From NCBI RefSeq assembly GCF_002160865.1, contig NZ_NFLJ01000026.1:1-43565 (forward strand): DNA of 43,565 bases. Reading direction: 5' to 3'. Both the position numbers and the translations under genes were made by a program. The notes below the pieces were generated by a model. It made no database searches and was not told the origin of the DNA. It was given only the letters and a program-made list of their open reading frames with translations. Positions within the stretch are counted from its first letter, which is position 1. Every line of letters begins with the position of its first letter. This DNA is from Massiliimicrobium timonense (lineage in GTDB: Bacteria; Bacillota_I; Bacilli_A; Erysipelotrichales; Coprobacillaceae). Positions 2,462-21,900 of the stretch are shown one piece after another.

Positions 2462-5400
2462 ATGCCAAAAAGAGAAGATGTAAACACAGTATTAGTTATT
2501 GGTTCAGGACCTATTATTATTGGTCAGGCTTGTGAATTTGATTATTCAGGAACACAGGCTTGTAAAGCATTAAGAAATTTAGGATACAAGATTGTCTTAG
2601 TCAATTCTAATCCAGCGACAATCATGACAGATCCAGAAACTGCTGATGTGACTTATATTGAACCATTGAATTTAAAAAGATTAACACAAATCATTGAAAA
2701 AGAAAGACCAGATGCCTTATTGCCTAACTTAGGTGGACAATCAGCATTAAATTTATGTGCTGAATTACATAATGCTGGTGTCTTAAATAAATACAATGTT
2801 AAAGTTTTAGGTGTTCAAGTAGATGCCATTGAACGTGGGGAAGATCGTTTAGAGTTTAAAAAAGCCATGAATGAGCTTGGTATTGATATGGCAAGAAGTG
2901 AAATTGCGAATACAGTTGATGAAGCTCTCGCAATTGCAGACAAATTAGGATACCCTGTTGTTGTAAGACCTGCTTATACAATGGGTGGTGCCGGAGGAGG
3001 ACTTGTTTATAATGTTGAAGAATTAAAAACAGTCGTTTCTCGTGGTTTACAGGCCAGTCTTGTTCATGAATGCTTGATTGAAGAATCTATTCTTGGATGG
3101 GAAGAATTAGAAGTAGAAGTTGTCAGAGATGCTAAAAACAATATGATTACTGTATGTTTCATTGAAAACATTGATCCATTAGGTGTTCATACTGGAGATT
3201 CTTTCTGTAGTGCGCCAATGTTGACAATTTCTCAAGATGTTCAAGATCGTTTAAAAGATCAGGCTTTTAGAATTGTTGAATCTATTGGTGTTATTGGGGG
3301 AACAAATGTACAGTTTGCTCACGATCCTGAAACTGATAGAATTGTTGTTATTGAAATTAACCCAAGAACATCACGTTCTAGTGCATTAGCTTCAAAAGCA
3401 ACAGGTTTCCCTATTGCCCTTGTTTCAGCTATGTTAGCTGCTGGTTTAACTTTAGATGAAATTCCATGTGGAAAATATGGAACTTTAGATAAATATGTAC
3501 CAGATGGTGACTATGTTGTTATTAAATTTGCAAGATGGGCTTTTGAAAAATTCAAAGGTGCACAGGATAAATTAGGAACACAGATGAAAGCTGTTGGAGA
3601 AGTGATGAGTATTGGTAAGAATTATAAAGAAGCTTTCCAAAAAGCCATTCGTTCTCTTGAAATTGGTCAATATGGTTTAGGATATGCTAAAAATTTCAAT
3701 GAATTAACAAAAGAACAGTTATTAGAAAAATTAACAGTTCCTACAAGTCAAAGACAATTCATCATGTATGAAGCTTTAAGAAAAGGAGCAACTGTTGAAG
3801 AATTATATGAATTAACAAGTATTAAACATTATTTTATTGAACAGATGAAAGAATTAGTTGATGAAGAAGAAATGTTAAAATCATATGCAGGGAAAGAGTT
3901 GCCAGTAGATGTTTTAAGACAAGCAAAACAAGATGGTTTCTCAGATAAATATTTAAGTCAGATTTTAAATGTTTCTGAAGATAGTATCAGAAATGAAAGA
4001 ATTGAAAATGGTATTACTCAAGCTTGGGAACCAGTTCATGTCAGTGGTACAAAAGATAGTGCCTATTACTATTCTACATATAATGCTCAAGATCATAGTG
4101 ATATTCATCATGATAAGAAAAAGATTATGATTTTAGGTGGAGGACCAAACAGAATCGGTCAAGGTATTGAATTTGATTATTGCTGTGTTCATGCTTCATT
4201 GGCTTTAAAGAAATTGGGATTTGAAACAATTATTGTCAACTGTAATCCAGAAACAGTCTCTACTGATTATGATACTTCTGATAAACTTTATTTTGAACCA
4301 TTAACATTAGAAGATGTTTTAAGTATTCATGATAAAGAAAAACCAGTGGGTGTGATTGCTCAATTTGGAGGACAAACACCATTGAACTTAGCTTCTCAGT
4401 TAAAAGCCAATGGTGTACATATCTTAGGAACAACACCTGAAACAATTGATATGGCAGAAGATAGAGATTTATTCAATGAAATGATGGAAAAATTAAATAT
4501 TCCTATGCCAGAATCAGGAATGGCTGTCAATGTTGAAGAAGCTTTAGAAATCGCTAAAAGAATTGGTTATCCATTAATGGTAAGACCTTCTTATGTCTTA
4601 GGTGGACGTGGAATGGAAGTTGTTTATGATGATGACAGCTTAAAACAATATATGGCTGCGGCTGTTGGTGTGACACCAGATCGTCCAATCTTAATTGACA
4701 GATTCTTAAATAATGCAATGGAATGTGAAGCAGATGCTATTAGTGATGGAACAAATGTTTTCGTTCCAGCTGTTATGGAACATATCGAATTAGCTGGTAT
4801 TCACTCTGGAGATTCAGCATGTATCTTACCTTCTAAACATATTCCAATGAGACATTTAGAAACAATCAAAGAATATACAAAGAAAATCGCGAAAGAAATG
4901 AATGTTCGTGGACTTATGAACATGCAATATGCGATTGCTGATGATAAAGTTTATGTTCTTGAGGCCAACCCAAGAGCTTCACGTACAGTACCTTTAGTAT
5001 CAAAAGTATGTAATGTTAATATGGTGAAGATTGCAACTGATATTGTGACAATGGAATTAACTGGTAGAGAATCACCAGTACCAAAATTAACTGAAAAGAA
5101 AATTCCACATGTTGGTGTTAAACAAGCTGTATTCCCATTCAATATGTTCCCAGAAGTTGACCCAATCTTAGGACCAGAAATGAGATCAACAGGAGAAGTG
5201 TTAGGATTAGGAAGTTCATTTGGAGCAGCTATCTATAAAGCTGAAGAAGCGACACAAACAATCTTACCAACTGAAGGAAAAATATTGATCAGTGTTAACG
5301 ATATGGACAAACCACAAGTTGTTGAACTTGCTAAAGGATACTATGATGCAGGATTTACAATTGTAGCGACTGGAAATACATATGCTTTAATTCAAGAAGC

Positions 5401-13007: not shown

Positions 13008-13592
13008 ATGACAAAAATAGTGAAAATGATAGGTATTTTGCTGATTATAGGTTTAGGTATCTATGTTATTGTTTATTTGATCATTCAATCACTCTTTATT
13101 GATGTCAACAAGATACATAATTTCCAAAATATAAAAGATTTTGAGAAATATTCTCATTTGTCATTTTATGACCTTTATGATTTTGATGCTTTTATCAATA
13201 CAGGTGAATATAAGCTTTTAAGTGTACATGAAAATTATTTTATTCATTTTGAAGATTATGAACCTTATGAGTATATTTTTACATTAGATTCCAAAACTAC
13301 AGAATATACTATTCATCAACAAACGAGTTATCCACAGTCTATTATTGGAAAAGAAGAAATGATTGTTGTTGATGATGCTCAAGTGATTGTGAATATGAAT
13401 ACTGATACAAATGAATGTTATTTTACAGTTTATTTGGATGATTGTTATTATCGTATAAGATATACAATGCTCAATCATATCTCACAGGATGAAATCATAT
13501 CGAAAATAAAAGATTATGTTCATTTTAATAATGAATTGCATAAAGAGAAGCTTGGTGAAGCTTCTCTTTTGAAACATTATAAAATAGTATGA
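13008..13592 (+). CDS. Membrane-anchored protein of unknown function
   Basis: The 194 residues begin with a single N-terminal hydrophobic helix (IVKMIGILLIIGLGIYVIVY), followed by an acidic, Tyr-rich domain predicted outside the cell. No family is recognised. AAGGGGATG lies 7-8 bases before ATG 13008; the in-frame ATG at 12999 is inside that site. An intrinsic-terminator-like hairpin is embedded in the last codons, so the C-terminus (KEKLGEASLL) is encoded by the hairpin itself. Confidence 0.5.
   Translation: MTKIVKMIGILLIIGLGIYVIVYLIIQSLFIDVNKIHNFQNIKDFEKYSHLSFYDLYDFDAFINTGEYKLLSVHENYFIHFEDYEPYEYIFTLDSKTTEYTIHQQTSYPQSIIGKEEMIVVDDAQVIVNMNTDTNECYFTVYLDDCYYRIRYTMLNHISQDEIISKIKDYVHFNNELHKEKLGEASLLKHYKIV
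13542..13570 (+). terminator. Terminator-like hairpin inside the 3' end of a coding region
   Basis: AAAGAGAAGCTT and AAGCTTCTCTTT pair over 12 bp with a 4-base loop, ending in TTTT. It lies 20 bases before the stop codon of the upstream gene. Confidence 0.6.
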
Positions 13593-15021: not shown

Positions 15022-15122
15022 ATATTCTCCTTATTCATAAAAGAATAGGAGATATATATTGAGATTTGTTGTATAAGATGTTACACAAAAATATGTACTT
15101 TGGGATTCAATATCTCCTATTC
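15022..15122 (-). promoter_or_regulatory. purF 5' leader with alternative pairing around the Shine-Dalgarno site (candidate RNA switch)
   Basis: On the minus-strand RNA the 5' end (15122-15110) reads GAAUAGGAGAUAU and pairs perfectly over 13 bp with AUAUCUCCUAUUC (15055-15043). The Shine-Dalgarno segment GAAUAAGGAGAAUAU (15036-15022) can pair with the same middle segment across a 6-base loop, leaving two unpaired A. The two pairings exclude each other: one exposes the ribosome site, the other hides it. About 54 bases (15109-15056) lie between the outer arms and could hold a sensor. I do not recognise a known riboswitch class in them. Confidence 0.6.
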
Positions 15123-15128
15123 GTGAAT

Positions 15129-15157
15129 ATTATAGCGAAAGAATTGTGTTTTTTCAA
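15129..15157 (-). promoter_or_regulatory. Sigma-A promoter of purF
   Basis: On the minus strand: TTGAAA, 17-bp spacer, TATAAT. Start is predicted near 15122, exactly at the 5' arm of the leader hairpin. No PurBox (CCGAAC-like) is seen. Confidence 0.85.
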
Positions 15158-15182
15158 TAGAATATAATAATAATTTATTAAA

Positions 15183-15222
15183 ATGATAAAAAATCATTGA
15201 CAAAAATGATTCGCTGTATCAT
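15183..15222 (+). promoter_or_regulatory. Alternating ATGAT/ATCAT half-sites over the glnN promoter
   Basis: ATGAT (15183), ATCAT (15193), ATGAT (15206) and ATCAT (15218) form two inverted pairs with 5- and 7-base gaps. They cover the region upstream of the -35, the -35 and the -10. This does not match the GlnR or TnrA box (TGTNA-N7-TNACA). Possible operator; AT-rich chance is not excluded. Confidence 0.35.
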
Positions 15223-15225: not shown

Positions 15226-15274
15226 GCAAGATAAGTAAACGAGAAATAAGCGTTTATAAGAAGGAGTGATAGAT

Positions 15275-18988: not shown

Positions 18989-21900
18989 ATGAAAGAATAT
19001 AATCAGGGATTACATAATGTCAAAGAACATGATGCCTGTGGTATTGGAGCTGTTGTGCATATTGATGGAAGACAGGATTACCAGGTTGTCGATCAGGCAT
19101 TAACTATTGTAGAAAAACTGGAACATCGTGCTGGAAAAGATGCCAGTGGAAAGGTAGGAGATGGTGTGGGAATCTTATTACAGATTTCACATCGTTTCTT
19201 TAGTAAAATTGCCAGACAGCTTCACATAGCTTTACCTCAACCTTATGATTATGCGGTGGGAATGTTTTTTTTACCCCAAGATACACTGACAAGACAAAAA
19301 GCTATGAAAACGTTAGAGCGTATTGTCTTGAAACATCAGGCGACATTTTTGGGATGGCGTCAAGTTCCATGTCATGAAGATATTTTAGGACAAAAAGCCA
19401 AAGATTGTATGCCTTATATCATGCAATGCTTTATTGAAAAGCCTAAAACTTGTCAACAAAGAATGGACTTTGAAAGAGTTTTATATGTGATACGACGTGA
19501 ATTTGAAAAATCTTCACCACAGACATATGTTGTTTCTTTATCTTCATCAACCATTGTTTACAAAGGTATGTTTCTTGTTCATCAGTTAAGACAGTTCTAT
19601 GATGACTTGCAGGATCATGATTATCATAGTGCCATTGCTTTAGTACATTCACGTTTCTCTACGAATACCAATCCAAGTTGGCAAAGGGCTCATCCTAATC
19701 GTATGATTGCCCATAATGGAGAAATTAATACGATTCGTGGCAATGCGAATCGTATGTTGGCTAGAGAAGAAACACTCCATTCTCCTTATTTTCAAAAAGA
19801 TATGGCCAAAATCTATCCGATTGTAGATGTTCGAGGTTCAGATTCAGCGATGTTAGATAATACTTTAGAATTCTTATATATGAATGGTATGCCATTAGCT
19901 AAAGCTATGATGCTATTGATTCCAGAACCATGGAAACATACAGCTATGTCACAAGAGAAAAAGGATTTTTATCATTATTATGCGACAATGATGGAGCCAT
20001 GGGATGGACCAGCAGCGATTTTATTTTCTGATGGTATTTTCATGGGTGCAACCTTAGATAGAAATGGGTTAAGGCCATCACGTTATTATATTTTAGATGA
20101 TCAGACATTGATTTTATCATCAGAAGTTGGTGTTTTGGATATTGATGAAAGTCATATTGTCAAAAAATCACGTCTTCAGCCAGGAAAGATGTTATTGGTT
20201 GATACACAAAAACAACAATTAATTGAAGATGATATCTGTAAAATGAGTTATGCGAAAGAACATCCTTATGGAGAATGGCTAGATTATTATTTATTACATT
20301 TAAAAGACTTACCAGCACCAGATAAGAAATCACATATTCATAGTCAAAGTGATCGTGATATCTTATATAAGATTTTTAGTTATACATATGAAGATGTCAA
20401 AGATATGATTTTACCTATGGCTAAAAATGGAATTGAACCAACTGCATCAATGGGAACTGATATTCCTCTTGCAATGTTGAGTCAAAAACATCCCACATTA
20501 TTCCATTATTTTAAACAACAGTTTGCTCAAGTGACCAATCCACCTATTGATTCTTTAAGAGAAGAAGTCGTTGTAGATACAACGGTATATTTAGGATCTA
20601 ATGGAAACTTATTACAGGATCAATCTGATAATTGTCAGGTCTTAGAAATCAATAATCCAATCTTAGATAGTCGTGATATGGATAAACTGAAACAGTTAAA
20701 TCGTAATGGTTTCCATAGTCAGGTTATTTCTTTATTGTATTATAAAGGTATTTCCTTAACAGAGGCTTTGAATCAATTATTCCTTGATTGTGATAAGGCT
20801 TATCGTCAAGGAGTCAATATCTTAATTCTTTCTGATAAAGGTGTAGATGATAACCATCTGGTTATTCCTTCATTGTTAGCTGTATCAGCTGTCGAAAGTC
20901 ATCTGGTTAAAACAAAAAAGAAAACAGCCATGTCCATTGTTTTAGAAAGTGGGGAACCACGAGATGTTCATCAGTTTGCCTGTCTGTTAGGTTTTGGAGC
21001 GACAGCTATTTATCCTTATTTAGCTCATGAATGCATTATCGAAATGATACAGCTGAATATGTTAGATAAGGAAGAAAATAAAGCCATTGAAGATTATAAT
21101 CATGCGGTTTTAAAAGGAATTGTGAAGATTGCAGCGAAAATGGGTATTTCTACATTGCAATCTTATCAGTCTGCACAAATCTTTGAAGTCGTTGGTTTAA
21201 AAGAAGATGTTATGGACAGTTATTTCCCAAACACTGTTTATCGTGTGGGTGAAAAAGGTTTAACTGATATCGAAGATGATATCCATTATTATCATGATCA
21301 TGCTTTTGATCCATTAGGATTAAAGACAGATACATCATTAAAAAGCTTAGGTTTTCATAAATTCAGACGTGGACCACAAAGTGAAGTGCATATGTACAGT
21401 CCTGAAACCATTGTTTTACTTCAAAGAGCCACACAAACAAATGATTATCAGTTATTTAAAGAATATTCTCATCAGTTAGAAAGTCAGCCATTTGCTGTAC
21501 GTCATTTATTAGAATTTGATATGACACAACGACAAGCTATACCTCTTGAAGAAGTTGAAAGTGTTGATAATATTGTCAAACGTTTTAAAACGGGAGCGAT
21601 GTCTTATGGTTCTATTTCTAAGGAAGCACATGAATGCTTAGCGATTGCGATGAATCGTTTAGGAGGAAAATCAAATTCTGGAGAAGGTGGAGAAAATCCA
21701 GAAAGATTATACACAGAAGCCAATAGTGCCATTAAACAGGTGGCGAGTGGTCGTTTTGGTGTCACAAGTGAATATCTGGTGAGTGCTAAAGAAATTCAAA
21801 TTAAAATGGCTCAAGGTGCCAAGCCAGGTGAAGGAGGACATTTACCAGGACAGAAAGTTTATCCTTGGATTGCTAAAACACGTTATTCAACACCGGGAGT

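Follow-up and report, generated by a model that had tools for sequence, protein, structure and literature searches.

A leader confined to one genus upstream of purF in Massilimicrobiota: a possible cis-regulatory RNA

The purF locus

The window analysed here is the whole 43,565-nucleotide stretch of contig NZ_NFLJ01000026.1 from the gut bacterium Massiliimicrobium timonense (assembly GCF_002160865.1). Its minus strand carries purF, the product of which catalyses the committed step of purine synthesis; the gene was identified by the model TIGR01134 at 517 bits (cut-off 350). The features of the control region are collected in Table 1. As the TTGAAA-17-TATAAT promoter ends at 15129, the purF mRNA should begin at about 15122, and would then open with GAAUAGGAGAUAUUGAAUCC. 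A start downstream of 15110, which the preliminary description had raised as an objection to its own proposal, is therefore not what the promoter predicts; the start is placed before the decoy arm. The TATAAT box and the 6 nt gap that separates it from GAATAGG are the same in all five congeners.

Table 1. Features of the purF control region, in window coordinates.
Feature	Position	Strand	Remarks
purF promoter, TTGAAA-17-TATAAT	15129..15157	-	sigma-70-type; 11 of 12 consensus matches
Predicted transcription start, G of GAAUAGG	15122	-	seventh base past the -10 box; inferred
P1 5' arm, SD-like 'decoy' GAAUAGGAGAUAU (GAATAGGAGATAT)	15110..15122	-	invariant in 5/5
UUGAAUCC block	15103..15109	-	UUGA enters P1b, then unpaired AUCC; invariant
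Inner hairpin P2, UUGUGUAA-CAUC-UUAUACAA	15069..15088	-	weakly supported
Invariant 12-mer ACAUCUUAUACA	15081-15070	-	within P2
P1b 3' strand, UCAA	15059..15062	-	G002 keeps the pairs as U-G and G-U
P1 3' arm, potential anti-SD AUAUCUCCUAUUC (ATATCTCCTATTC)	15043..15055	-	last 11 nt (AUCUCCUAUUC) invariant in 5/5
purF Shine-Dalgarno (SD) AAGGAG	15027..15032	-	inside GAAUAAGGAGAAUAU (GAATAAGGAGAATAT, 15036-15022)
purF, amidophosphoribosyltransferase, 466 aa	13619..15019	-	TIGR01134

The preliminary description had noted three segments in the leader: an SD-like decoy, a segment complementary to it and the SD itself. These are confirmed as real, and all three are present on the minus strand; the span that it assigned to the leader (15022-15157) does contain the leader but takes in the promoter as well. 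The first 13 nt of the leader match the reverse complement of 15055-15043 exactly, and the core of the latter segment, UCUCCU, is itself the complement of AGGAGA in the purF SD. No terminator-like site, of the kind on which an intrinsic-terminator attenuator depends, was found between 15122 and 15019 on the minus strand.

The purF promoter diverges from that of a glnN-like glutamine synthetase gene. Between the two promoters, a block at 15166-15204 is conserved among the congeners and, for the most part, in two further genomes of the family (G032 and G017), and a palindrome within it, AATGAT-AAAAA-ATCATT at 15182-15198, overlaps the glnN -35 box. The block is a candidate operator for both genes, through which glutamine synthetase and purF would be coupled. 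In the window species the glutamine synthetase leader (15233-15274, plus strand) has a small hairpin at its 5' end; at the same position in G017 and G027 (upstream regions L049 and L050) there is a long G+C-rich hairpin of the GGCAAAGGGG...CCCCUUUGCC type followed by a U-rich stretch, looking like an attenuator.

Conservation among five congeners

Comparison of the five Massilimicrobiota genomes examined (the window species, G000, and G001-G004) indicates that three blocks of the leader are invariant: CGAATAGGAGATATTGAATCC (21 nt), ACATCTTATACA (12 nt) and ATCTCCTATTC (11 nt). Over the same five genomes only 47 of the 165 four-fold sites of purF (28%) are invariant, which for the 21 nt block alone gives a rough probability of about 3e-12 if sites are treated as independent. 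Conservation is also high in the promoter and in a TTTGTCAATGATTTTTTATCATT block, and constraint thus extends over the control region as a whole. The decoy arm, the absence of which from close relatives would have spoken against the earlier proposal, is thus retained unchanged in all five, as is the UCUCCU:AGGAGA complementarity.

Because both arms of P1 are invariant, no pair shows a two-sided (compensatory) change among the five sequences, and the helix is therefore backed by complementarity rather than by covariation. Pairing is preserved in 98% of the cells of helix 1 and in 20 of 20 for P1b, two of these as wobbles in G002 despite changes on the 3' side; P1b is also retained while the 3' strand between it and P1 differs in length. 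The figure for the inner hairpin is 90%, four of its eight pairs being broken by single changes, each in one sequence. When run unaided, RNAalifold recovers all three helices (P1, P1b and the inner hairpin); its covariation term, at +0.72, is slightly unfavourable. The inner hairpin is not the one first proposed: GUACAU/GUGUAAC is not conserved, and the consensus at 15088-15069 is a hairpin with a CAUC loop.

Folding of the leader

When the leader is folded only as far as the 3' arm, the minimum-energy structure is P1 in all five species (-16.8 to -20.3 kcal/mol; z from -2.6 to -5.7). The number of shuffled sequences as stable as P1, out of 500, was 0 for G000, G001 and G004, 3 for G002 and 9 for G003. 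A stable hairpin is thus present at the predicted 5' end of the transcript, as in stem-loop stabilisers. In 2000 dinucleotide shuffles of the 103 nt G000 leader a 13 bp helix never arose from the 5' end, and arose anywhere in only two.

As a further control we surveyed 448 genes of G001 with a promoter-like site and an SD, drawn from 2.53 of its 2.93 Mb; gene and promoter calls were crude, so that the comparison holds to an order of magnitude. A 6 nt anti-SD occurs in 22 of these leaders, and in one of the 22, that of purF, an upstream segment is able to pair with it. By length of the 5' helix purF ranks second, one other leader having 14 bp. A chance hairpin without function might draw on the AT-rich sequence and on that longer helix elsewhere in G001, but is highly improbable, being unlikely already from the shuffles and from conservation in five of five species while 72% of four-fold sites changed.

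The G001 survey also brought up two unrelated arrangements. Three paralogous genes, with proteins that begin MKDLKVDDVIRDFF, share the leader CCCTCCTGAAATATATTGAAAGGAGG, in which the SD pairs with an anti-SD at the transcript start (L145:1275-1306, L134 at about 5301-5335 and L107 at about 19698-19730). An inverted repeat GTGAAATATCC...GGATATTTCAC occurs just 3' of a -10-like box in eight copies within a 2.4 Mb block; at the three sites inspected (L130 at about 13180-13388, and L189 and L180 upstream of ORFs at 1540 and 11778) the ORFs are unrelated but their leaders, about 200 nt long, are nearly identical.

The preliminary description had proposed a two-way switch in which the complementary segment pairs either with the decoy, exposing the SD, or with the SD, hiding it. 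Both pairings are possible in all five species, but they are energetically competitive in two only. In forced-pair folds the SD:anti-SD ensemble beats P1 by 2.6 kcal/mol in G000 and 0.9 kcal/mol in G004, whereas P1 is ahead by 5.8, 5.6 and 4.6 kcal/mol in G001, G002 and G003, respectively. Since the hidden state is favoured only in G000 and G004, an equilibrium two-state switch is not conserved in the genus. The decoy is paired within P1 in the best fold of three species; in G000 and G004 the SD-hidden fold leaves part of it free. The related observation that the decoy equals the SD segment minus two A residues stands for these same two species, but the other three share little beyond AGGAGA. 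With P1 formed, the SD is mostly free in G000, G001 and G004; small local hairpins cover part of it instead in G003 and G001, and no common SD-hiding device emerges from folding across the five. A pseudoknot between the loop sequence UCUUAUA and UAUAAGG of the SD, assessed by eye, would have seven pairs in G002, six in G000 and G004, five in G003 and four in G001. Taken as a whole, the switch interpretation is partly supported.

Distribution

The leader is present in each of the five genomes as a single copy upstream of purF. A covariance model built from the five matched only the genus in scans of the order (315 genomes), the class (395) and the phylum (392), sets which overlap and of which the last two were scanned with stricter filters; viral contigs and plasmids gave no match. 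BLASTN with the leader against 43 genomes of the family likewise found convincing matches in the five congeners only, the remainder being short and AT-rich. The covariance model revealed no second copy in any of the five genomes. In G001 and G003 it also matched in minus orientation, which is the one hairpin read in reverse. One additional match in G001 (E 5e-5) covers the inner 39 nt only, without either arm, and was treated as chance; the ORF downstream of it, of 148 aa, resembles a MarR-type regulator by eye.

purF itself was matched at E 1e-50 in 38 of the 43 family genomes. Upstream DNA from 30 of the 38 comprises the five with the leader, one (G017, CHKCI006) with a different short hairpin near its own predicted +1, and 24 that, judged by eye, have neither. 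A divergent glnN-like neighbour was found in the fetched flanks of eight of the 30, namely the five congeners together with G032, G027 and G017; five further loci are duplicates. As the leader is found in the five only while this neighbour also occurs in the other three, it was therefore gained at the level of the genus, on a divergent promoter that is older. The layout of the CHKCI006 hairpin is alike, in that it too stands at the 5' end, its 3' arm CUCUUU could pair with AAGGAG with one G-U and the SD-hidden fold is favoured by 1.7 kcal/mol. Any claim for it as a diverged homologue would concern a single genome without alignable sequence to the genus leader. With the leader missing from close genera that have the same neighbour, the locus may offer a view of a regulatory RNA soon after its origin.

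Interpretation

In our view, held tentatively and with something short of even confidence, the leader is a genus-restricted orphan cis-regulatory RNA that by default forms P1 with the SD free, and its loop blocks are read by something. Building on the computed segments, promoter, conservation and competing folds, we propose that it tunes purF expression in cis after initiation. The first 80 nt or so would fold co-transcriptionally into the long-range P1 (12-13 bp, extended by the 4-7 bp of P1b) ahead of synthesis of the SD; because P1 already has the lowest energy once the 3' arm has been made, it should form before the SD appears. P1 would occupy the anti-SD and leave the SD free, so that the default would be ON. 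If P1 were unformed or opened, UCUCCU would be freed to pair with AGGAGA of the SD, a pairing predicted to be strong in the window species and G004 and weak in the other three. The invariant AUCC and ACAUCUUAUACA may be where a ligand or factor reads the leader, to hold P1 or to open it. Ligand-gated switching is plausible, both the existence and the nature of the ligand being matters that we infer. Given the anatomy of the leader, control would run in the direction in which the ligand holds P1 and the gene is on, which would suit a substrate, for instance PRPP or glutamine; were the ligand a purine end product, it would need to destabilise P1. The inner invariant blocks AAUCC and ACAUCUUAUACA appear compatible with an aptamer and equally with a protein site.

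A narrower version of this proposal, which we regard as doubtful, is that the leader represents a new, recently evolved riboswitch class of one genus: an aptamer of about 45 nt (UUGAAUCC ... ACAUCUUAUACA) for purF, closed by a helix in which the 5' arm is a copy of the SD, with a ligand, most likely PRPP or glutamine, that keeps the SD free.

The best placed of the rivals, unlikely as we judge it, is a constitutive stabiliser at the 5' terminus: a hairpin at +1, perhaps with an SD-like arm comparable to a STAB-SD, would shield the purF mRNA from 5' decay without ligand or switch. The hairpin does begin at the predicted +1 in all five species, P1 is favoured in three of them and leaves the SD mostly free in the three noted above, G017 has another short hairpin near the +1 of its purF, and there are precedents in B. 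subtilis aprE and B. thuringiensis cry3A (works cited in PMC3997798). Such a device would need neither an invariant 12-mer, nor invariant arms, nor an anti-SD in the 3' arm, and its loop would be free to vary. A STAB-SD, moreover, would have to be single-stranded, whereas the decoy has a perfect complement, and purF of G032 and G027, with the same gene neighbour, does without the leader. We favour a regulatory leader over a plain stabiliser because the loop holds an invariant block and the 3' arm an anti-SD.

Sequence-specific binding of a protein, either an RNA-binding regulator at the loop or a DNA repressor over the initially transcribed region, is rather improbable. The invariance of the two arms and of the 12-mer ACATCTTATACA goes beyond what pairing needs, which hints at possible sequence-specific binding, and CGAATAGGAGATATTGAATCC lies directly 3' of the -10 box. 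A DNA site is harder to reconcile with arms whose distance differs by up to 9 bp between species (hairpins of 76-85 nt), out of helical phase, with the lack of a second copy in the five genomes by covariance model, and with G-U wobbles in P1b that fit RNA rather than DNA. GATATTGAATCC with at most one mismatch is found elsewhere in every genome of the genus. A DNA-looping reading was also considered and is disfavoured by the same variation in hairpin length. The wobble-kept pairs, the variable spacing of the arms and the single copy per genome lead us to prefer a regulatory leader to a protein site, by a margin that is small, as the invariant arms fit either.

A leader peptide, in which the decoy would be the true SD of a short upstream ORF starting from UUG and its translation or stalling would control purF, is very improbable: UUGAAUCC after AGGAG is invariant and the sole third-codon change (CCC/CCU) is synonymous, but the SD-to-UUG gap is only 3 nt, and the ORF is not conserved in frame among the five congeners, having 6 (G004), 9 (G000), 9 (G002), 18 (G003) and 24 (G001) codons with nothing shared past LNP.

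Comparison with known systems

At gathering score, Rfam 15 gave no match in the window, the purine, PRPP/ykkC, ZTP and glutamine families included, in agreement with the earlier impression that the leader resembles no riboswitch core for these ligands; at E values up to 5 the only hit was a chance snoRNA match far below its cut-off. The Fibro-purF RNA motif, from Fibrobacter, is also named for a purF leader. purF is not mentioned in the main text of PMC11109978 or of PMC6429828, and the accessible parts of the riboswitch literature on purF, purines and Massilimicrobiota yielded no description of the leader reported here.

The purine riboswitch (RF00167) shares with the purF leader a connection to purine metabolism, but its model does not match the leader. 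It does match elsewhere in four of the five genomes of the genus. In the window species the match (G000:C31:31250-31350; L160, L211) lies ahead of genes resembling a polyamine-type ABC transporter, after which comes an adenine deaminase-like gene; the group suggests a unit for purine transport and salvage.

The PRPP riboswitch (ykkC subtype 2b), alone or in tandem with guanine aptamers, turns purine genes on, according to the accessible text of PMC5912903. It resembles the purF leader in controlling purine biosynthesis genes, as the latter might; it differs in regulating through a terminator (same portion of PMC5912903), which the purF leader does not have.

The aprE and cry3A stem-loop/STAB-SD stabilisers of Bacillus (works cited in PMC3997798) are like the purF leader in having a hairpin and an SD-like sequence at the 5' end. 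The purF leader departs from them in its anti-SD 3' arm and its invariant loop block. If it were merely a stabilising hairpin, it would serve as a modest example of a 5' UTR device.

The purS motif of Corynebacterium, a weak riboswitch candidate with six representatives in the part of PMC11109978 available to us, is similarly restricted to a genus, linked to a purine gene, possibly equipped with an anti-SD loop and an orphan. It belongs to another gene and another phylum, the comparison being one of published description only. As we interpret it, the purF leader of Massilimicrobiota may be a compact addition to the few orphan leaders of the purine pathway.
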